From positions 1 to 57,212 of the forward strand of contig NZ_RHOG01000013.1 of assembly GCF_003946405.1 (NCBI RefSeq): DNA of 57,212 bases, in the 5' to 3' direction. The DNA is from Lacticaseibacillus yichunensis. GTDB taxonomy: Bacteria > Bacillota > Bacilli > Lactobacillales > Lactobacillaceae. Under the pieces are notes generated by a model. The model searched no databases, had not been told where the DNA came from, and saw nothing but the letters and a program-made list of their open reading frames with translations. The translations under genes were made by a program, and so were the position numbers. The first letter of the stretch is position 1; each line of letters opens with the position of its first letter. Shown piece by piece: positions 47,869-57,212 of this stretch.

Positions 47869-48104
47869 TGCGCCAGACTTTTTATCAATACCTGATGACC
47901 AAACGCAATCCCAATGACCATGGGGAAGTCGCGAATTTTGCCCAGAACGCCTTTTTGGACCAGGCCTTTCCCAAGCAGGCGACGGATTTCGAGGAGCTTT
48001 CCTCATATTTGGAGTACAACGGCAATTACCTGCCGAGCATGGATATTTTTGACTCCGTTTGGCACGACTATCTCTCAGACGAACATGAATTAGGAGGCCG
48101 CTGA
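47868..48104 (+). CDS. YozE-like (UPF0346) small protein
   Basis: 78-residue acidic helical protein of the YozE family, which has a SAM-like fold and unknown role. Typical sequence: [29 protein letters not shown] at the start, then DFEELSSYLE and SMDIFDSVWHDY. The start overlaps the msrA stop by 1 bp and its stop overlaps the ctpA start by 1 bp, giving a three-gene coupled unit. Confidence 0.85.
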   Translation: MRQTFYQYLMTKRNPNDHGEVANFAQNAFLDQAFPKQATDFEELSSYLEYNGNYLPSMDIFDSVWHDYLSDEHELGGR

Positions 48105-49546
48105 TGGCTGATAAGAAAAAACATCGTAGTATCCAGATTCCGGCGTGGCTCCTTGGCGTCGGCCTGGCAGGTGGCCTCGCAGCCGGTGGCGTCATCGGGT
48201 ACGCCGTTGCCCCAGTCACCCAGCAGCAGGCCGCGACTGTCGTGACCGGCGTGCCAAAAGAGCTCCAGTCGGTCGTCACCACCTACGCGACCATTCAGGC
48301 CAGCTATTATAAAAATGTCAAAGGCTCGACCCTGGCAAATGGCGCGATCTCCGGCATGCTCAGCAGTCTCAATGATCCATGGTCCGAGCTGCTAGTCACA
48401 GACGACAAGGCCGACCTCGATTCGACCCTGTCCGCAACCTTTGGCGGCATCGGTGCGACGATTCAGGACACCGGCAAGCAGCTTTTGATCGAAAGCATCA
48501 TGCCGGACACCCCCGCGAAGAAAGCGGATCTGCAAGTCGGTGACCAGCTGATGGCTGTCGATGGCACTTCGGTCGTGGGCAAGTCGTCCAGCGAAGCCGT
48601 GGCGAAAATTCGCGGCAAGGTCGGCACCAAAGTCAAGGTGACCATTAAGCGCCACAACAAGCTCATGACCATCGAAATGACGCGTGCGAAGATCACCACC
48701 GACACCGTGGCCTCTGCGCTCAGTCCCGAGAACAAAAAAGTCGGCGTCATCACCATCGCCACCTTCTCCGAACCGACCGCCAACCAATTTGAGGAGGCCG
48801 TGAAGAAGCTGCGCAAGGAAGGCGCGACATCCTTTGTCATCGACCTGCGCGGCAATCCGGGCGGTGAACTGACGGCGGCCCTGTCGATTGCCTCGATGTG
48901 CCTGAAGGACGGCAAGACCATCGTCCAGATTCAGCAGCGCGAAGGGGACCCAGAGATCGATAAGGCCAGTGAAAAACTGGATGGCGGCTTCAAAGTCACC
49001 GAACCACTCGCTGTTTTGATCGATGGCAACTCCGCCTCGGCCTCCGAGATTCTGTCGGCGGCCCTCAACGAATCCGCCGGCGTCCCGCTGATCGGCCAGC
49101 AAAGCTACGGCAAGGGCCTCGTGCAAAATGTCGCCTCACTCAGCAAATCCGCTGAGATCAAGTTGACCATTGCCAAATGGCTGACGCCGGATGGCAACTG
49201 GATCAACAAAAAAGGCCTGACCCCGACCAAGAAAGTGGCGTACCCGGCCTACGCCACCATCAACGCGATCAGCGCGACCTCGCTGAAACCAGAAGACGAA
49301 AGCTCGGACGTGCGCAACATGCAGCAGATCCTCACCGCGCTCGGCTACTTCAAAGGCACCACTAACGGCTTCTACGGCCCAACCACCGAATCAGTGGTCA
49401 AAGCCTTCCAGAAAGCGGAAGGCCTGACCCAGACCGGCCTCGCGGATCAAAAGACCATCACCCAACTGATGGGCCGCCTCTCCGCCAAATTCCAAACCGA
49501 CGACCCTATGATGAAGGCCGCCGTCGAAATGGCAGGAAAAGAATAG
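48104..49546 (+). CDS. ctpA: S41 family C-terminal processing peptidase with PDZ and peptidoglycan-binding domain
   Basis: 480-residue membrane-anchored serine protease. Basic N-terminus and one hydrophobic segment (about 12-36); N-terminal helical region; PDZ domain (about 110-190, with GGIGATIQDTG); protease core with the DLRGNPGG segment, NSASASEI containing the catalytic Ser, and SYGKGLVQ with the catalytic Lys; and a C-terminal PG_binding_1 domain (about 400-465, VRNMQQILTALGYF). It would act at the outer face of the membrane on proteins near the cell wall. Start after AGGAGG, overlapping yozE. Confidence 0.92.
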   Translation: MADKKKHRSIQIPAWLLGVGLAGGLAAGGVIGYAVAPVTQQQAATVVTGVPKELQSVVTTYATIQASYYKNVKGSTLANGAISGMLSSLNDPWSELLVTDDKADLDSTLSATFGGIGATIQDTGKQLLIESIMPDTPAKKADLQVGDQLMAVDGTSVVGKSSSEAVAKIRGKVGTKVKVTIKRHNKLMTIEMTRAKITTDTVASALSPENKKVGVITIATFSEPTANQFEEAVKKLRKEGATSFVIDLRGNPGGELTAALSIASMCLKDGKTIVQIQQREGDPEIDKASEKLDGGFKVTEPLAVLIDGNSASASEILSAALNESAGVPLIGQQSYGKGLVQNVASLSKSAEIKLTIAKWLTPDGNWINKKGLTPTKKVAYPAYATINAISATSLKPEDESSDVRNMQQILTALGYFKGTTNGFYGPTTESVVKAFQKAEGLTQTGLADQKTITQLMGRLSAKFQTDDPMMKAAVEMAGKE

Positions 49547-49648: not shown

Positions 49649-49849
49649 TTGGGAAGCGAAAGGCCGGGCGCTACGCTGGGTGCGCGGATAATTGATTTGA
49701 TTGTGTTGGAAGAGGACCGCAGCGATTGTTATGCCATAATCTGGAGACATCTTTGAGATAGTATGGAAAGTGCAGGTGTATATCGGCAAACAGGAATTGA
49801 GGCGTTGGGTAGCCAAATGATCGATTATCTCATCAAAGAATCAAACTGA

Positions 49850-50044
49850 GGGCTGGCCCCGACCAGAAATGGCTCGCTTCGCCTGTCTTGGCGTAAGGCA
49901 TAAATGCCTAACGCCAAGAGCAAGCCCCCTCGTCGGTGTTAGCGGCGTGCCGCTTACACCGAAAGCAAGCTTTGAGACCGCGGTCTAAGCGGGCTCAAAG
50001 TTGCTTGGGAGCGTTCCAGCTAATTTCTGGTCGGGGACAGCCCG
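49850..50044 (+). repeat. Family 2 multi-branched repeat, copy 4 (long form)
   Basis: The outer stem CCCCGACCAGAAA pairs with TTTCTGGTCGGGG. One G-C pair of the other copies is A-T here on both arms. It contains the same extra CTTGGCGT...ACGCCAAG hairpin as copy 3, then GGTGTTAGCGGC/GCCGCTTACACC and AAGCAAGCTTTGAG/CTCAAAGTTGCTT. It lies in the 610-bp gap between ctpA and the jet operon. The 200 bases before it show nothing recognisable. Confidence 0.85.
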
Positions 50045-50100
50045 CCATCTTCCGCAAACCTTTTTGAGCCCGAATAGTCGCAAACAATTTGCCGTTCATC

Positions 50101-50160: not shown

Positions 50161-51732
50161 TTGGCGCATGCACTTTCAGATCAACTCTACGCCCTGGTCA
50201 ACGCCATGGCGCTTGGCCGCAGCTCCAAACATCCGCTGGCCGGCTGGCAGGTCTTGGCGATTCTGTATCACGACGGCGCCAGCGCAGAGGAAGCCATCAC
50301 GTTGCGGTATTTGCTGCGCACCTACAACAACGAGTATCGCCAGCCAGACGAAGAAGTGATCTCGCTTGACGGCTTGCGCGGCATTCTGACCGTCTTGATC
50401 GATGAGGTCCAGCTGGTGGAATCGACCTCGCGGATGATTCGCAAACGGCTGGCCAATGGGCGGTTTCGTATCAGTCAAACCGCGGTCTACCGCATCACCA
50501 GCGCCGGCATCGCCTTTTTGACCGCGATGCAGCGAGTCATCGATGCGGAAACCACCGTCGTTGCGTCGACCAAGCGCATCGACGAGTTCGTGGCTGATGT
50601 GCATTTGATGCGCGATCGCGTGCAGTGGGAGACCAGCATCGAGGCGTTTTACACCCGGTTTGGCACCATGATGGAGGCCTATCATGACGTGATGAACGGG
50701 ATGCGCAAGCTCGACATCGACCTGCGCGAGATCGCGACGGACCTGTCCTTCAATCATGCGGGCGACGTCGCCAAACACCTGCAGGCCATGCTCCACGAAC
50801 AGGCGGTGCCGGCTTATCAAAAATTGCAACAGTTGGCCCCAGCAATTGTGCGCATGGGGCGCGACGAGGCGCTGGTGGCGGCCTTGGCAATCAGTTCAAA
50901 AGGCCTTGGCAGCATCGATGTGCACGACGCGACCAGTGACGACGAGGCAAAACTCGTTGCGCGCCGTGAGCTGGAATCTGCGATTCGCCGCCAGCTGCAG
51001 GGCATGGCCCAGAGTTTTGAAGGCACCACGACGGCCATTCAAAGCAGCATGGATTCGATCTACTTGTTGTTCAATACCCTGTGGGAAATGATCAAATTGC
51101 TGACGGCCGAATACGACCACGTCCAGCGTCAGACCGTCGATATCAAGACCCTGACCACTTCGATCGACGCGCTGCTGGCGAAAAGTGCCCACCTCGTGAT
51201 GCCAGAACAGCTGCCCCGTCATCTGCCGCTGGATCGTTTGACTGAGGACCAGAAAAACGCAATCGCGATCTTGCCACCGAGTGAACAGGCGGCCGCCACG
51301 GCGGAAATGGCGACGGCCCTGCGCACGGATCTGCTGGAGGCAGGGGCGATGCCGGCAGTTCGGCGTGCGCTTCAAGACGCCGAGGTGAAGACCTACACCG
51401 AGGCGGACAACCCGCAATTGGTCGATGATGAAGATCTTGCATCGGGCATCGAAGCGGGCCAGGCGGAATTCCGGCGGCTCGTGATGGTCGATGATGCGCA
51501 CGGTGAAGTCAACCGGCCAGTGTTTTTCCAGACCAAGTGGGCACGGGACCAGACCGTCTTTTTATACAGCGCGACGAATTATGCGGACCCGCTCGCGTTT
51601 GCGGTGGATGGCCGCCAGCTGACCGAGGCGACGCAACTTACCGAAAGCGGCCCGGTCCAGCTTCAAGTGGCCGGCGAAGCCTTTGCCGTCGAGTTGCCAC
51701 ATGGCTTCCAGTTCACATTTGAAAAGGGGTGA
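50161..51732 (+). CDS. jetA: Wadjet-like condensin subunit JetA (kleisin-like)
   Basis: 523-residue, almost entirely helical soluble protein, first gene of a four-gene condensin operon. The N-terminal 120 residues (MAHALSDQLYALVNAM ... AVYRITSAGIAFLTAMQ) look like a winged-helix domain. A long helical middle follows, then a C-terminal beta-containing domain (about 455-523). This matches the expected layout of a kleisin such as JetA, MksF or MukF. I choose TTG at 50161 because AGGAGG precedes it by 7 bases; the ATG at 50089 lies upstream of the likely promoter. The assignment rests mostly on its neighbours and helical pattern. Confidence 0.65.
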   Translation: MAHALSDQLYALVNAMALGRSSKHPLAGWQVLAILYHDGASAEEAITLRYLLRTYNNEYRQPDEEVISLDGLRGILTVLIDEVQLVESTSRMIRKRLANGRFRISQTAVYRITSAGIAFLTAMQRVIDAETTVVASTKRIDEFVADVHLMRDRVQWETSIEAFYTRFGTMMEAYHDVMNGMRKLDIDLREIATDLSFNHAGDVAKHLQAMLHEQAVPAYQKLQQLAPAIVRMGRDEALVAALAISSKGLGSIDVHDATSDDEAKLVARRELESAIRRQLQGMAQSFEGTTTAIQSSMDSIYLLFNTLWEMIKLLTAEYDHVQRQTVDIKTLTTSIDALLAKSAHLVMPEQLPRHLPLDRLTEDQKNAIAILPPSEQAAATAEMATALRTDLLEAGAMPAVRRALQDAEVKTYTEADNPQLVDDEDLASGIEAGQAEFRRLVMVDDAHGEVNRPVFFQTKWARDQTVFLYSATNYADPLAFAVDGRQLTEATQLTESGPVQLQVAGEAFAVELPHGFQFTFEKG

Positions 51733-51736
51733 GCAC

Positions 51737-52750
51737 ATGCCTGGCTTACGGAACACGGAAAAAACGATCATCAACCAACTCTTTGATCAGGAGATGTTTA
51801 CCAGCACGCCCGCCGACCATGAGACCGCGGCGGCCAAAAATGCGCGCGAGGCCTACAAGCGCCCCGAGACCCAGCGGCGCATCAATTATTTTCTGCGCGA
51901 TCTGATCGGGACGACGCCACTGAACTTTCAAGACGACCTCCTGCTTTTGACGGGGCCGGGGCGGCTTTCGCAATTTGAGGTGCAGGTCCTACTGGCGACG
52001 CTCAAGGCGGTGGTCAATTCGCTTGAGATGCAGGATGTCACCGGCGATGGCGTGGTGGACTGTCTTGCCATCGTCACCACCGTGCAGAGCCAGCTGCCCG
52101 AACACACGGCGCGCGAGGTCAGAAAATGCATCGATGATCTGTTTGTCACGCGGTTTCCATTGTTTGTGCCGGATCGCCCGGAAATGGATGCGGGCGAGGC
52201 AGAAACGGAGATCGAGGAATACTGGGATGTCTCGCCCGACTTTCTGGCCGAGGCCCAAAACCTGGTGCTGTTTTTGCAGGCGCAAGAGGAGCCGGCCCCA
52301 GTCACGGCGAGTCAGCGCGTGAATCTGTTTTTGCTGAAGCACACATATCTGGCGGCTGCCGCTCAGCCCGAGTTGTGGCAGACGCTGCTCGCCAATAAAA
52401 TTCAGATCGAAGCGCAGTGGCGTCAGCTGGATCGATTTTACCTGGAGATCGGCGATGATTACGCGCTGCTCTTAGACGCGAGCCGGACGCCATTGCGCTC
52501 GCGGCCTTATTTTATTGCGGCGAAGGTGGCGCAGACGCTGGGGCAGGGGCTACCCGATGCGGCGCTGAATGGGCGGATTCGGTCGATCGGCAAGCAGCTG
52601 TATCCGCATGCTGAGGTCGCCGCGATTCTGGTGCGCCAGGCACTAACGGAGAACGCGTTTGCCTATCAACGCGACGATTTTTGGCTGGCGACCCCTTTAG
52701 CCGGCCGGTTGAAATTGGTCTTAGACGAGCAGGAGGACTTCGATGACTGA
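51737..52750 (+). CDS. jetB: Wadjet-like condensin subunit JetB (KITE-like)
   Basis: 337-residue soluble acidic protein between the kleisin-like and SMC genes, the place of JetB/MksE, the dimeric winged-helix subunit that binds the kleisin. It is longer than the roughly 200-230 residues usual for JetB. It has an N-terminal helical section (about 1-150) and a C-terminal winged-helix-like part (about 290-337, VRQALTENAFAYQRDDFWLATPLAGRL). The ATG at 51737 follows AAGGGGTGAG and lies 4 bp after the jetA stop; an earlier reading from 51683 overlaps jetA. It overlaps jetC by 8 bp. Confidence 0.6.
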   Translation: MPGLRNTEKTIINQLFDQEMFTSTPADHETAAAKNAREAYKRPETQRRINYFLRDLIGTTPLNFQDDLLLLTGPGRLSQFEVQVLLATLKAVVNSLEMQDVTGDGVVDCLAIVTTVQSQLPEHTAREVRKCIDDLFVTRFPLFVPDRPEMDAGEAETEIEEYWDVSPDFLAEAQNLVLFLQAQEEPAPVTASQRVNLFLLKHTYLAAAAQPELWQTLLANKIQIEAQWRQLDRFYLEIGDDYALLLDASRTPLRSRPYFIAAKVAQTLGQGLPDAALNGRIRSIGKQLYPHAEVAAILVRQALTENAFAYQRDDFWLATPLAGRLKLVLDEQEDFDD

Positions 52751-55700
52751 AACGGCAACTGATTTTTTGCACCCTTGGGATTTTCACCTGCGCGACTTTG
52801 GCCAATACGTGAAGCTGGATTTTGCCGCTTCGGAGACCGGTAACGTCACGCTGCTGGGTGAAAACGCGGTCGGGAAGACGACACTTGCGAACGCCTTTTT
52901 CCCCGTGCTGGTGGATGGCTCGATCGCCACGCCGTCTTTTAATTCGGCGAAAGACACTGACAGCGTGGGCCGTAGCGACACCCCGCACAGTACGGCGCGC
53001 GATAAGCGGACGTTCAACTCGATGCTGCTGGGCTGGGGCAAAGGCGCCCAGCAGATTCGCACCGGGTACGCGTACATGCGGCTGCGGTCCAGCCAGCGCG
53101 TGGTGACGCTGGGCATCGGCGCGCACCGGCAGGCGGACGGGCGCCGCGGTCAGACGTGGTGGTTCATCTTGATTCAGGATGATCCAAACGCGCCGCTGAC
53201 CCTGGTGACGACCGATACAGCCGGTCGGGGCCTGGACCGCGATGCATTTGCAATCGAGAACATGGCGTTTGGCGATGAGTTGAAGGTCTTCAAGGACTGG
53301 GAGGCCTACCGCAGTTTTTCGGCGCGCGAGGTCTATGGCTTTGAGTCCGGCGAGGCGCTGGGCCGGCTGGCAAACGCGTACCGCTTGCTGGCGTCGCCGA
53401 TCTTGACGGGTGGCAATGCCCGGTTTGCCCCGATTCCAAATGCGTTGCGCGAGGCCCAAGAGCCGATCGATTTTGACCAGATTATTCGCCCGCTTGCTGA
53501 AAGCCATCGCGATCTCAACCAGATGCATGCGATGCGCGCGCGGATGGCCGACGCCAAGCAGCGCCTGGTGAAAATGCGCGAGGATCTGTTTTGGGGCAAC
53601 CTGAACGCGCTCAAGTCACCGACCCTCAGCAATTATGCGAAGGCCATCAATCAGCGCGACCAAGCGACAAGCGCCATGGGTCATGCCCAGGCGGAGATCG
53701 AGGCGTTGACCACGCAGCTTGAATTGGTCAACGCGCAAGTCGCGCAGCAAAAATCCCAGGTGGAGGCCCTGCGTGACGCACTCGCCGCGCAGAAGCAGAT
53801 CGCCCGCTCGCGTCACGAAAAACAGCAATTGATCGCGCGCCTGCGCCAATCTTTGACCGAACTGGAAACACGGCAGGCGCAGATCAGCGAGCTGAATCAG
53901 GCAATTGACGAGCTGAAGGCCCAACGCGCCGAAATGGCCACCCAGCGCCAGACCATCGAGGCAGGTCCGCTTGCCGAATTGACTGCCAAGCTCCACGCGG
54001 CCTCGGCTGGCCAACACGACCTGACCGATGCGTTGGCGCAAACAGATCGCGCGGCATTGGCGACGGCGTTTTCCGCCTATCTGGCACGCTATCGGCTGGC
54101 GGTGAGTGACGCGCAACACCTCGAGCAGACTCTTTCTCAAACCACCAAAGACGTTGGCCTGGTCCAGGGGATGCAAGGGGCGATGGGGCTGGCGATCGAC
54201 AAGCGCGCCGTCGGGTTTGCCAGTCGCGCCAAGGACGGGCTGCATCAAGACAACAACGAGATCCACGAACGCGGCGTGGCCGAAATGAACCAGGACGCGG
54301 CAACCATCATCGAGGCGCAAAGGACGCTGCATGATCAACATCCCGATCTCAAAGCGATGCTTGCTGACTCGAACCGGCTGACGATGTTGGATACCCAGGC
54401 GCAAGACTTGCACGCGTTGCTGGATCAACTCGCCGCCCTGACGCGCCAAGACACGCAACTGGCCAATCAGCTGACCGCCAAACAGTCCAGCCTGGAAACG
54501 TTGACCAAGAATCCACCCGCCGAAACAGAGAAGGACATCCAGACTCAACTTGAGGTAGCCGAGGCGGAATTGGCCGCGCTGGTCCTGGATGAAACCTTGC
54601 CCGGCCAGTTTGCCGCGGCACAACAAGCGCTCGATCAGACGCAGGCCCAACAAGCTGATTTTCAGAATCGGCGCACCCGCGCGCAAAGCGAACTCGATTT
54701 TCAGACAAAAGCGCTGGCCGAGGCCAAAGACGCGCTGACGGCCTTGACCGAAACGCTCAATGCGGCTATCAAGGTGCTGGCCGATTTTTCCCCGGCGGAC
54801 CTGGCGATCGCGGATATTCCGGGCTTGCTTGAGGTCGCGCACCGGTTCAAGAAGCGCATCGACACCAATCGCAGTCAGGACCTGCCGCTGAAAATTCGTA
54901 CCGCCATCGATGGTACGAATAAGCAAGGCCATGACGAGGAGACCGCGCTCGACACGCTGTTTGAGTTGCGCGGGTATCAGGACCTGGCGACGCGCCTTCA
55001 TCGAGAGACCGTGGTGTACCAGGGCGTTCTGATCACCATGCCGATCGACCTGGTGAAAACGATTCAGCTTTTGACGGACGACTTGGCCGGCATCGATGAG
55101 GCGCTGGCGCAACTGACCACCGGCAATGAAATGGCCTTTGAAAATTATTTGAATGCGGCTATCACAAGCGTCAATCATCAATATGAAGATGTTCAAACTT
55201 ATAACCAGATGTTGGAGGAAGTGCAGACCGCAGACGGCATTCGCCTGATGATCTCGCTTGTTCCCCAGCTCGGCTCGGCCAGCGAGGCAATCAAGGAAGT
55301 TCAAGGCGCCGAAAATGCCGACTTGCCGCAACTGCGAAAATTCGTACGGACGCTGATCGACAACTTGGTGCACGACACGACGATTGGTAGCGGCGATGAG
55401 GCGGCCTATTTTGCCAAAGCCAACGAATTGCTGGACACACGCTACTGGTCGCGGTTTCAGGTCGAGATCTTCCGCAAAGACAGCGACACGCCGGAGCTCG
55501 TGGATGATGCCTTCGTGCAATCGGGCGGCTCCGGCGCGGAAAAGGCGCAGGCGATGGTCTTGCCACTGCTTTTGGTGCCGAAGATTCGCCTGGCCCGCGC
55601 CAGCAAACCTGATGCCCCGCATCTCGTGATGTTTGACGAATTCGCCGACAAGCTGGATCCGGAAACGGCGCGTGTTTTCACGAAAACGATCGCGCGGTTT

Positions 55701-55871
55701 GGTTTCAACTTCATCGCCACGATGCCAACCGGCGGACAAAACAAGATTCTCGCAGACGGTGTGACCAACGTGGCCTATGAGGTGTTGTCATCGCCCCATA
55801 AGCGCAAAAACGAGTTCCATCCCAATCAACTGCTGAAGGTCGCAACATGGAAGGGGCGTCAGGATGACTGA
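52743..55871 (+). CDS. jetC: Wadjet-like SMC ATPase JetC
   Basis: 1042-residue SMC-type ATPase, the motor of the condensin. Head domain N-half: Walker A GENAVGKTT (39-47). A long coiled-coil section rich in Ala, Gln, Leu and Glu covers about 300-690 with possible hinge and return strands to about 890. Head C-half: the signature-like SGGSGAEKAQ (927-936) and Walker B HLVMFDEFADKLD with D965 and E966. It is shorter than MukB (about 1480) and most JetC proteins. There is no Rad50 zinc hook. It overlaps jetB by 8 bp and jetD by 8 bp. It is distinct from the housekeeping SMC that works with ScpAB at 24 kb. Confidence 0.75.
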   Translation: MTETATDFLHPWDFHLRDFGQYVKLDFAASETGNVTLLGENAVGKTTLANAFFPVLVDGSIATPSFNSAKDTDSVGRSDTPHSTARDKRTFNSMLLGWGKGAQQIRTGYAYMRLRSSQRVVTLGIGAHRQADGRRGQTWWFILIQDDPNAPLTLVTTDTAGRGLDRDAFAIENMAFGDELKVFKDWEAYRSFSAREVYGFESGEALGRLANAYRLLASPILTGGNARFAPIPNALREAQEPIDFDQIIRPLAESHRDLNQMHAMRARMADAKQRLVKMREDLFWGNLNALKSPTLSNYAKAINQRDQATSAMGHAQAEIEALTTQLELVNAQVAQQKSQVEALRDALAAQKQIARSRHEKQQLIARLRQSLTELETRQAQISELNQAIDELKAQRAEMATQRQTIEAGPLAELTAKLHAASAGQHDLTDALAQTDRAALATAFSAYLARYRLAVSDAQHLEQTLSQTTKDVGLVQGMQGAMGLAIDKRAVGFASRAKDGLHQDNNEIHERGVAEMNQDAATIIEAQRTLHDQHPDLKAMLADSNRLTMLDTQAQDLHALLDQLAALTRQDTQLANQLTAKQSSLETLTKNPPAETEKDIQTQLEVAEAELAALVLDETLPGQFAAAQQALDQTQAQQADFQNRRTRAQSELDFQTKALAEAKDALTALTETLNAAIKVLADFSPADLAIADIPGLLEVAHRFKKRIDTNRSQDLPLKIRTAIDGTNKQGHDEETALDTLFELRGYQDLATRLHRETVVYQGVLITMPIDLVKTIQLLTDDLAGIDEALAQLTTGNEMAFENYLNAAITSVNHQYEDVQTYNQMLEEVQTADGIRLMISLVPQLGSASEAIKEVQGAENADLPQLRKFVRTLIDNLVHDTTIGSGDEAAYFAKANELLDTRYWSRFQVEIFRKDSDTPELVDDAFVQSGGSGAEKAQAMVLPLLLVPKIRLARASKPDAPHLVMFDEFADKLDPETARVFTKTIARFGFNFIATMPTGGQNKILADGVTNVAYEVLSSPHKRKNEFHPNQLLKVATWKGRQDD

Positions 55872-56670
55872 TTATCGGGCGGCGTATGAAGCCGCAACAG
55901 GCCATCCAGTCCCGCCCGAAGCAGCCGGGTTGGACGCGCTTTTTGCCAAGATCAGTGCCGGCGAGCCGCTTCCGCCGCGGGGTCAGCAGGCGGTCGATGC
56001 CGGCCTGACTGCGCATTCGCTGAACGACGCAAAAGAGGCGCCGGCCGTTTTCCACTATTATCAGTGGGTGCTCGCGCATTATTTTGCGGATGGCCAACTC
56101 AACGAACTGTCGGCGAAACTGATCGGCATGGCTTTCACGGCAGCGAATATTTTCCAGACTGAACTGCCCCAGCCGTTGACGCTCAATCCTTGGCAGATCG
56201 CGGCAATGGCGAATTATCCGCTGGCGACGACCAAGGCCGTGGTCGTGGAAAATAATGGGGTGTTTGTGTTGTTGCACACGCTGCACCCCACCTGGCCGCT
56301 GATCGATCAGGGCGGGAATGATTTTCAAAAGGCGTATGTGGGCCTGATGCAACAATTGGTCGCGCGGGGCTTGCGTTTGGCGTATCTCGGCGACTTAGAC
56401 AGCGAAGGCATTCGCATCGCCGACACCTTGCTGGGCGCGTTGCCGCGTGATGCGGCGCCCGATTTTCTCAGCCTGCAGACGCCGCAGCGGGTCCTGCAGT
56501 GGATCACGGATCGCGGCCGGGTAGATGCCGGGCGGACCGGGGACCGACGCATCAGCGATTCGACTTTGCAAACGGAGCTGGCGACGATTCGGTTTAGCGG
56601 AAAATTTGTGGAGCAGGAACAGTTGCTGAGTGAGTATGAGGTACTGATTGGGGACTGGCTGAAGGAGTGA
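55864..56670 (+). CDS. jetD: Wadjet-like Toprim nuclease subunit JetD (short)
   Basis: 268-residue protein with a C-terminal Toprim domain like that of topoisomerase VI A and Spo11. Acidic motif VVVENNGVF has Glu129, and GDLDSEGI has Asp177 and Asp179. In Wadjet, JetD cuts DNA that JetABC has extruded. The Toprim sequence looks more like DUF2399 than DUF2220 to my eye. The protein is about 120 residues shorter than classical JetD, so the N-terminal arm and CAP-like domain are reduced or absent. The start overlaps jetC by 8 bp. No terminator is obvious after it. Confidence 0.7.
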   Translation: MTDYRAAYEAATGHPVPPEAAGLDALFAKISAGEPLPPRGQQAVDAGLTAHSLNDAKEAPAVFHYYQWVLAHYFADGQLNELSAKLIGMAFTAANIFQTELPQPLTLNPWQIAAMANYPLATTKAVVVENNGVFVLLHTLHPTWPLIDQGGNDFQKAYVGLMQQLVARGLRLAYLGDLDSEGIRIADTLLGALPRDAAPDFLSLQTPQRVLQWITDRGRVDAGRTGDRRISDSTLQTELATIRFSGKFVEQEQLLSEYEVLIGDWLKE

Positions 56671-57212
56671 ATGGGGCAGATGAGTCAGCTCAATTGTTGC
56701 GTACTCTCGGTATGCGGATATTGAGATTCTTTGTTGAAAGATGATAATCGGCGTCCCCGGGGTATGCGCGTGTCGATTGCCCATGGAATGCGTGGAAAAG
56801 TAATGTGATGGGGTCACGCCCAAGTTGGGGCGTGCGGGAAATTGTGATGGCGTCACACTGATGTGGAGGTTGTTCAGACGGAATCCCGGAAGCCGCGGTC
56901 TCTGAGATCGGAAATATCGAAGACCTGCCCCGGATGAAGCAAATGGGCAGTCTCAGGGATCGCAAAATTCTGACCGTTTTCTTCTTTAGACTCATGCGCG
57001 AAAATTTGTCACTTTTAATCCAGATAGGCAGCATCCGCGGTCCCGTGGTCCTCACTGCCTCAAGAAAACGCAATCTCAGAGATCACAAACTTGTCTAAAT
57101 CGGCCCATCACATCAAGAGCCGCAATCTCGGAGATGGGCGTGCGGACATTTTTTTGGACCGCCGTTTTGCTAAAGTGCACAACGACGGTGTTCGTTCAGG
57201 TTTTTACCTCCC
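56671..57212. other. Non-coding region with paired palindromic motifs after the jet operon
   Basis: No convincing gene. Two copies of GTGATGGSGTCAC lie at 56805-56817 and 56844-56856. Four copies of a motif close to GCRRTCTCAGRGATCRCAAA lie at 56895-56914, 56947-56966, 57070-57089 and 57122-57140. Three of them contain the palindrome TCTCNGAGA. The first and second, and the third and fourth, are both exactly 52 bp apart. They may be binding sites for a regulator or another protein. A 127-codon minus-strand ORF across it lacks a site and family resemblance. Confidence 0.6.

Follow-up and report, generated by a model that had tools for sequence, protein, structure and literature searches.

The operon

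The contig NZ_RHOG01000013.1 of Lacticaseibacillus yichunensis (57,212 nucleotides; hereafter the window) carries four intact genes on the + strand at positions 50161-56670. In order, they encode a kleisin-like protein (JetA), a protein resembling a kleisin-interacting tandem winged-helix element (KITE; JetB), a structural maintenance of chromosomes (SMC) ATPase (JetC) and a Toprim protein (JetD), giving the order A-B-C-D (Table 1). The operon is likely to be an anti-plasmid machine of the Wadjet type, from a compact clade that stands apart. A first-pass annotation, made from the letters alone, had described four genes in one direction with gaps or overlaps of 4-8 bp, and both this spacing and the protein sizes that it gave agree with Table 1. 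The sequence AGGAGG lies eight bases 5' of the jetA TTG start, and the longest jetA open reading frame (ORF) begins at 50089.

Table 1. Features of the operon and their coordinates in the window
Feature	Position	Strand	Description
jetA-like kleisin gene	50161..51732	+	523 aa, TTG start with Shine-Dalgarno sequence
jetB-like KITE gene	51737..52750	+	337 aa, 4 bp gap after jetA
jetC-like SMC ATPase gene	52743..55871	+	1042 aa, 8 bp overlap with jetB, short arms, signature SGAEK
conserved JetC tip, approximate codons (residues about 470-545)	54150..54377	+	delimited by conservation, Pro/Gly profile and alignment gap
jetD-like Toprim nuclease gene	55864..56670	+	268 aa, 8 bp overlap with jetC

When the genomes of 84,980 species were scanned with two short conserved motifs, 172 candidate stretches came up and, from these, 49 relatives, all under Lactobacillaceae names; diverged members such as locus L120 would be missed by a scan of this kind. 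Because four uninterrupted genes are found in the same order and on the same strand in 41 of the 49 loci, the arrangement is beyond chance. In six others jetC is split, one has a short jetB and no jetA that could be found, and one is cut by a contig end. The genomes are drafts, so some of the jetC splits may be sequencing errors.

The JetC motor

JetC possesses the Walker A, signature and Walker B motifs of an SMC ATPase. The Walker A residues G39, N41, G44, K45 and T46, the signature from G929 to K934 and the Walker B residues D965 and E966 are invariant in 43 aligned JetC proteins, which bears out the Walker A and B motifs read in the first-pass annotation. One other gene of the same genome matches an SbcC-like Walker B family. 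The window JetC matches the PADLOC model JetC2 with an expectation value (E) of 1.1e-21. It also matches TIGR02680 at 2.7e-22, where its score of 78.5 bits against a cut-off of 462.85 places it outside the type II family. The profile of the 43 JetC proteins matches JetC of the Wadjet-II structure 9qe0 at E 6.6e-18.

The signature reads SGAEK in all 16 clade rows of the JetC tree described below, with S930 to K934 invariant in the 43, and SGAER in L120. In type II, it is mostly SGGE. The SGA signature is not unique to the clade, since L144 and one type III protein share it.

Between the Walker A lysine and the signature serine, 16 clade members have a span of 881-890 residues, the shortest among the proteins compared. 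It measures 916 in L120, 956-963 in type I (two proteins), 1077 in L146, 1188-1275 in type II (23 proteins) and 1289-1329 in type III (11 proteins). The shortening sits in the middle of the protein, where the clade has a conserved tip of about 45-75 residues. Type II has in its place a longer conserved stretch, rich in Pro and Gly, that covers about 155 residues (in L032, about 605-760). The tip was delimited by conservation, by the Pro/Gly profile and by a gap in the profile alignment with type II; the helix and strand propensities used along JetC served as a guide to the eye only. A profile of the type II hinge had no counterpart in clade JetC and none in types I or III either, so the missing match is no proof that a hinge is absent. 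From length, conservation and alignment, the JetC hinge appears to be reduced and the arms shorter.

The JetD nuclease

The window JetD exceeds the Pfam cut-offs of PF09983 (JetD_C; 25.8 bits, cut-off 22) and PF09664 (DUF2399; 40.5 bits, cut-off 23.4), and both families are matched by all 48 JetD members at E <= 0.01. The PADLOC model JetD2 is matched at 4.6e-13. TIGR02679 is matched at 6.2e-11, and the score of 42 bits against a cut-off of 196 again lies outside the type II family. Five acidic residues, E129, D177, D179, E250 and E252, are invariant in the 48 aligned proteins. Residues 129, 177, 250 and 252 have nearly the spacing of E236, D279, E349 and E351 of MksG. According to the MksG study (PMC10123090), change of E236 or D279 drastically impaired MksG, and E349 and E351 are proposed as nucleophiles.

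The Toprim acids also align with those of one type I JetD (E 1.3e-4, probability 53%). With type II, the alignment covers the Toprim part only, from about residue 91 here and about residue 225 in L032, and the N-terminal part of the clade's JetD is probably reduced. For type I JetD, PMC10586767 describes the N-terminal part as a CAP domain and the state observed as probably autoinhibited.

The JetB and JetA subunits

Structures of JetA and JetB were predicted with AlphaFold2, and Foldseek was used for fold matches. The JetB model has a predicted local distance difference test score (pLDDT) of 86.6 and a predicted template modelling score (pTM) of 0.79. Its single match below 1e-3 is chain D of 9qe0, a Wadjet-II JetABC complex (E 4.9e-7, query template modelling score (TMq) 0.59). 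This chain of 384 aa is, from its length, presumably JetB. The next matches are 8as8_C (type I JetABC, 4.5e-3), 8dk1_E (type I, 1.2e-2) and 7nyw_E (MukBEF, 2.0e-2). The PADLOC JetB2 models match weakly, one of them in five of 48 JetB proteins and another in one of 48, with a best value of 4.6e-6. The modelled fold is good support for JetB as the KITE subunit.

The JetA model is of modest quality (pLDDT 76, pTM 0.47). Its single Foldseek match below 1e-3 is 3euh_B of the MukE-MukF complex (E 5.8e-4), a chain that we take to be MukF; another MukF structure is matched at E 0.084. By eye, both ends of the model look winged-helix-like. The reading of JetA as a kleisin therefore leans on this modest fold match, on the position of the gene and on the winged-helix-like ends. 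JetA may thus be the kleisin, with modest confidence, and is the least certain part of the system. Of the kleisin and KITE likeness that had been suggested for the first two genes, these models uphold the KITE part and lend modest support to the kleisin part.

Family models did not recognize these subunits. None of 46 JetA members matches a PADLOC JetA model. In NCBIfam and Pfam, TIGR02677/DUF2397 is not matched by the window JetA, nor TIGR02678/DUF2398 by its JetB. DUF3375, the family of type I JetA, gives no Pfam match for the window JetA, and the genome as a whole has no PF11855 match.

Relationship to the known Wadjet types

Types I and II share the order A-B-C-D, and type III loci read D-A-B-C; the claim of the first-pass annotation that this order defines Wadjet thus holds for types I and II and fails for type III. 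In profile comparisons, whose strength depends on alignment depth and whose depth differed between types, the clade is nearest to type II (JetC 6.1e-28, JetD 1.4e-13), and type II and type III are about as close to each other (1.3e-26 and 1.8e-10). Against type III, the clade gives 9.9e-8 for JetC, over 55 columns of the middle part, and 1.3e-8 for JetD. Against type I, it gives 8.6e-4 for JetC, over 401 columns, and 1.3e-4 for JetD; these comparisons are weak because type I is represented by two JetC and one JetD only.

The type II JetC and JetD sets hold 18 of 22 Bacillota loci, and five plasmid records were added in the tree. L140 and L141 (JetC in pieces), L146 (no seed match) and L144 (carried as "odd") were left out of the 18. 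The 18 of the type II JetA and JetB sets include L140 and leave out L122, where both genes form one frame. For type III, 11 loci were fetched as the set, and matches, a few of them weak, came from 30 of 149 genomes. The clade is represented in the tree by the window and by 15 loci out of the 49 named ones, and L119 was left out, its JetC being split.

In this tree of 55 JetC heads, the clade (16 rows) has support of 100/99, and 100/100 together with the diverged L120. Type II plus L144 forms a group at 98/99 with the clade outside, and type III one at 100/100. Types II and III are joined with weak support (88/36), and the tree output warns of long branches. In approximately unbiased (AU) tests, with groups named after the tree was seen, nesting of the clade in Bacillota type II was rejected (p-AU 0.008) and a sister position to all type II was not (p-AU 0.39). 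The clade could therefore be either a type in its own right or the branch of type II that splits off deepest. The separate subtype suggested in the first-pass annotation gains from these results: the sampled sequences support a clade that is separate, with JetC and JetD related to type II and falling outside it as sampled.

Type II (TIGR02677/02678/02680/02679, for example JetABCD of Neobacillus vireti) has the same gene order as the clade, homologous JetC heads and a homologous Toprim part of JetD, and the clade JetB model is nearest to a solved Wadjet-II chain. Type II differs in the length of JetC (1349-1497 aa, compared with 1042 aa), of JetD (408-539 aa, compared with 268 aa) and of the tip, in its predominant signature, and in JetA and JetB, which are not alignable by profile with those of the clade. 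Type I, or MksBEFG, resembles the clade in gene order, in the length of JetC (1128 and 1130 aa in two loci) and in the aligned Toprim acids; it differs in its JetB of 202 and 222 aa (337 aa in the clade), in its DUF3375 JetA and in the weak similarity of JetC. With type III, there is the distant likeness of JetD given above, and the differences are the gene order, a JetC of 1466-1513 aa and a clade of its own. MukBEF supplies the nearest match of the JetA model, a MukE-MukF chain, and a match of the JetB model at E 0.02; MukBEF is not known to have a Toprim subunit.

On classification, though not on function, there is a tentative alternative. The clade could belong to type II, as a Wadjet that has diverged in lactobacilli, has lost coiled coil and hinge and works in the same way, in which case "subtype" would be enough. 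The nearest models are those of type II, as are the gene order, the nearest JetB fold and the JetB2 matches, and sisterhood to all type II fits the AU test. Against it stand the rejection of nesting, the exclusion of the clade from type II in the tree, the lack of a JetA model match in any of the 46 members, and a distance between clade and type II similar to that between types III and II.

Another genus of the family has a second compact operon with this gene order, which is more diverged (L119, 8569-15178; L120, 2032-8796) and has a JetC of 1066 aa in L120. A type II Wadjet of the same genus as the window (L122, 14150-16573) has jetA and jetB as one frame of 807 residues. L146 (3192-10802) has an operon of 521, 222, 1227 and 528 residues, and in the head tree its JetC sits on a long branch that belongs to none of types I-III.

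Distribution and decay

JetC is present in 15 of 100 relatives, one of which (G062) has a type II protein. It occurs in 12 of 30 genomes of the genus, the window's own included, and one copy is broken (G022). With the JetD profile, 61 of the 397 Lactobacillaceae genomes searched gave a match, a count that includes fragments, G006 and G789. The hit in G789 (L123) is weak, reads as pyrD-like by eye and was rejected as unrelated, and that in G006 is a type II JetD outside the clade. In a check for carriage by plasmids or phages, none of 72,556 plasmid records and none of 50,697 phage records matched JetC at E <= 1e-5, and motif scans of viral contigs gave no relative of JetD or JetC. The clade was also sought outside the family, and no near relative was seen: the JetC profile has matches in 61 of 398 Bacillota genomes, the best at 1.6e-15 once the window's own genome is set aside, and most of these matches fall at the head of frames with about 1350-1500 residues.

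In several species groups, the operon has neighbours in common, and relatives carry damaged or remnant copies at the same site. The A, B and C genes of L031 are broken, L113 (described below) has lost jetC, L115 retains 84 residues of jetD, and in the remnant of L117 the start of jetA adjoins the end of jetD. Other loci lack any common flanking ORF cluster. Because the operon holds its place and decays there in several species groups, vertical keeping with repeated loss seems a better description than a roaming island. The first-pass annotation had likened its setting to that of an accessory island, a picture that is right only in part, given the groups that keep the operon in place.

Partial loci take several forms. 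In L113 (7114-10163), jetC is gone, jetB and jetD make a single frame of 512 residues, the jetA frame has 498, and the Toprim acids are kept. Four genus members (G001, G002, G026 and G027) have a near-full-length JetD and no JetC match. Lone JetD proteins with the Toprim acids kept lie at L110 (9355-10311), L111 (5770-6579) and L112 (9103-9963), and tblastn found no jetABC remnants in the fetched stretches of these three loci. JetABC without a JetD match occurs once, in G038 (L028). A 3' fragment of jetD stands beside a full copy in L022 (11910-12101), and such fragments recur in L114, L115, L116, L118, L121 and L124.

Proposed function

The operon is probably an anti-plasmid system of the Wadjet kind. 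Two JetC motors, linked through the kleisin JetA and assisted by the KITE protein JetB, would extrude circular DNA with ATP. Once a small circle had been fully extruded, the Toprim nuclease JetD would be switched on and the circle cut. Extrusion, size sensing, cleavage and the plasmid targets are carried over from published work on types I and II and are presumed to apply here.

Several results weigh against this reading. The fold match of JetA is weak (TM 0.20, pTM 0.47), and after 3euh_B the next matches of its model, from E 3.5e-3, are unrelated helical toxins. Clade profiles of JetA and JetB found no relative in types I-III (E 0.08 or worse). JetA profiles show no similarity between any two types, known types included, and JetB profiles of the known types are weakly alike (I and II, 1.2e-3; II and III, 2.8e-3). 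Fewer plasmid replicases were sought in carriers, and no association was found for Rep_3 or Rep_1. Rep_3 is present in 16 of 53 genomes with a JetD of roughly at least 200 residues and in 110 of 344 others (p 0.87), in 13 of 46 and 113 of 351 when known broken loci are set aside (p 0.74), and Rep_1 in 3 of 53 carriers and 16 of 344 others (p 0.73); these counts, from draft genomes, one per species and uncorrected for kinship, are a weak test.

A role against phages instead of plasmids would fit the replicase counts but is quite unlikely, since the homology is to Wadjet and the Wadjet systems that have been studied target circular plasmids (PMC10586767). A chromosome-organising condensin of the MksBEF kind, with JetD secondary, is very improbable: there is a likeness of the JetA and JetB models to MukBEF-like parts, the same review gives MksBEF of Pseudomonas a share in organising the chromosome, and G038 keeps A, B and C alone, but jetD overlaps jetC by 8 bases, four genus genomes hold JetD without JetC, and presence within the genus is patchy.

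Hinge, arms and significance

A 2025 study (PMC12647877) bears on the short motor of this Wadjet-like clade. It reports that Wadjet-I passes obstacles tethered by single-stranded DNA through a channel hinge, and a Wadjet-II fails to pass tethered obstacles yet cuts naked circles. For Wadjet-II and Wadjet-III, its proposal is that the hinge channel was lost and that longer arms make up for the loss; in complexes that lack a channel the arms are generally longer, with a few exceptions in Wadjet-III. The hinge and the adjoining coil up to the elbow are dispensable for extrusion itself.

The clade may have neither a channel hinge nor long arms. If its tip is channel-less, it would be an outlier to the hinge/arm pattern. 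It could conceivably be a fourth Wadjet type, with the shortest motor compared, neither channel hinge nor long arms, and a JetD without most of the type II N-terminal part, though this is proposed with some doubt. If this were true, plasmid restriction in vivo would not require obstacle bypass, or obstacles could be bypassed in a third way. With its small tip and an SMC span shorter than that of type I, a clade related to type II is a natural test case for the arm-compensation idea and for the question of which parts of the motor are required.

The system may escape surveys of lactobacilli, since the clade JetA is unrecognized by the Wadjet models tried. The clade might also bear on the ease of plasmid uptake by such strains. 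A description of the clade was not found in literature searches on Wadjet in Lacticaseibacillus or lactobacilli or on a fourth type or subtype, judged mainly from titles and the openings of abstracts; subscription journals and bioRxiv lay mostly outside this search, and an earlier description is possible.

Flanks of the operon

The window is one entire contig, ending at 57212; the genome comprises 73 contigs and 2,558,704 bases. The G+C content over windows of the operon is 56-62%, close to or slightly higher than the 52-59% upstream. Lacticaseibacillus mingshuiensis is a close relative, with a JetC 95% identical and upstream ORF clusters common to both. A ctpA-like ORF, named from reading its sequence, lies upstream at 48104-49546, as the first-pass annotation had it.

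Between this ORF and jetA lies an element of about 200 bp (49850-50043) that resembles a miniature inverted-repeat transposable element, with inverted ends of 21 nt (95%). A query of 49845-50055 against the same genome gave 41 matches including itself, the others at 81-94% identity and often partial. The gap downstream of jetD had been described as filled with repeats. The repeats there are slighter than claimed: no tandem array was found in the gap, and four loosely similar 15-mers (73-100% identity to the reference copy) lie at 56894-57135 with spacings of 52, 123 and 52.

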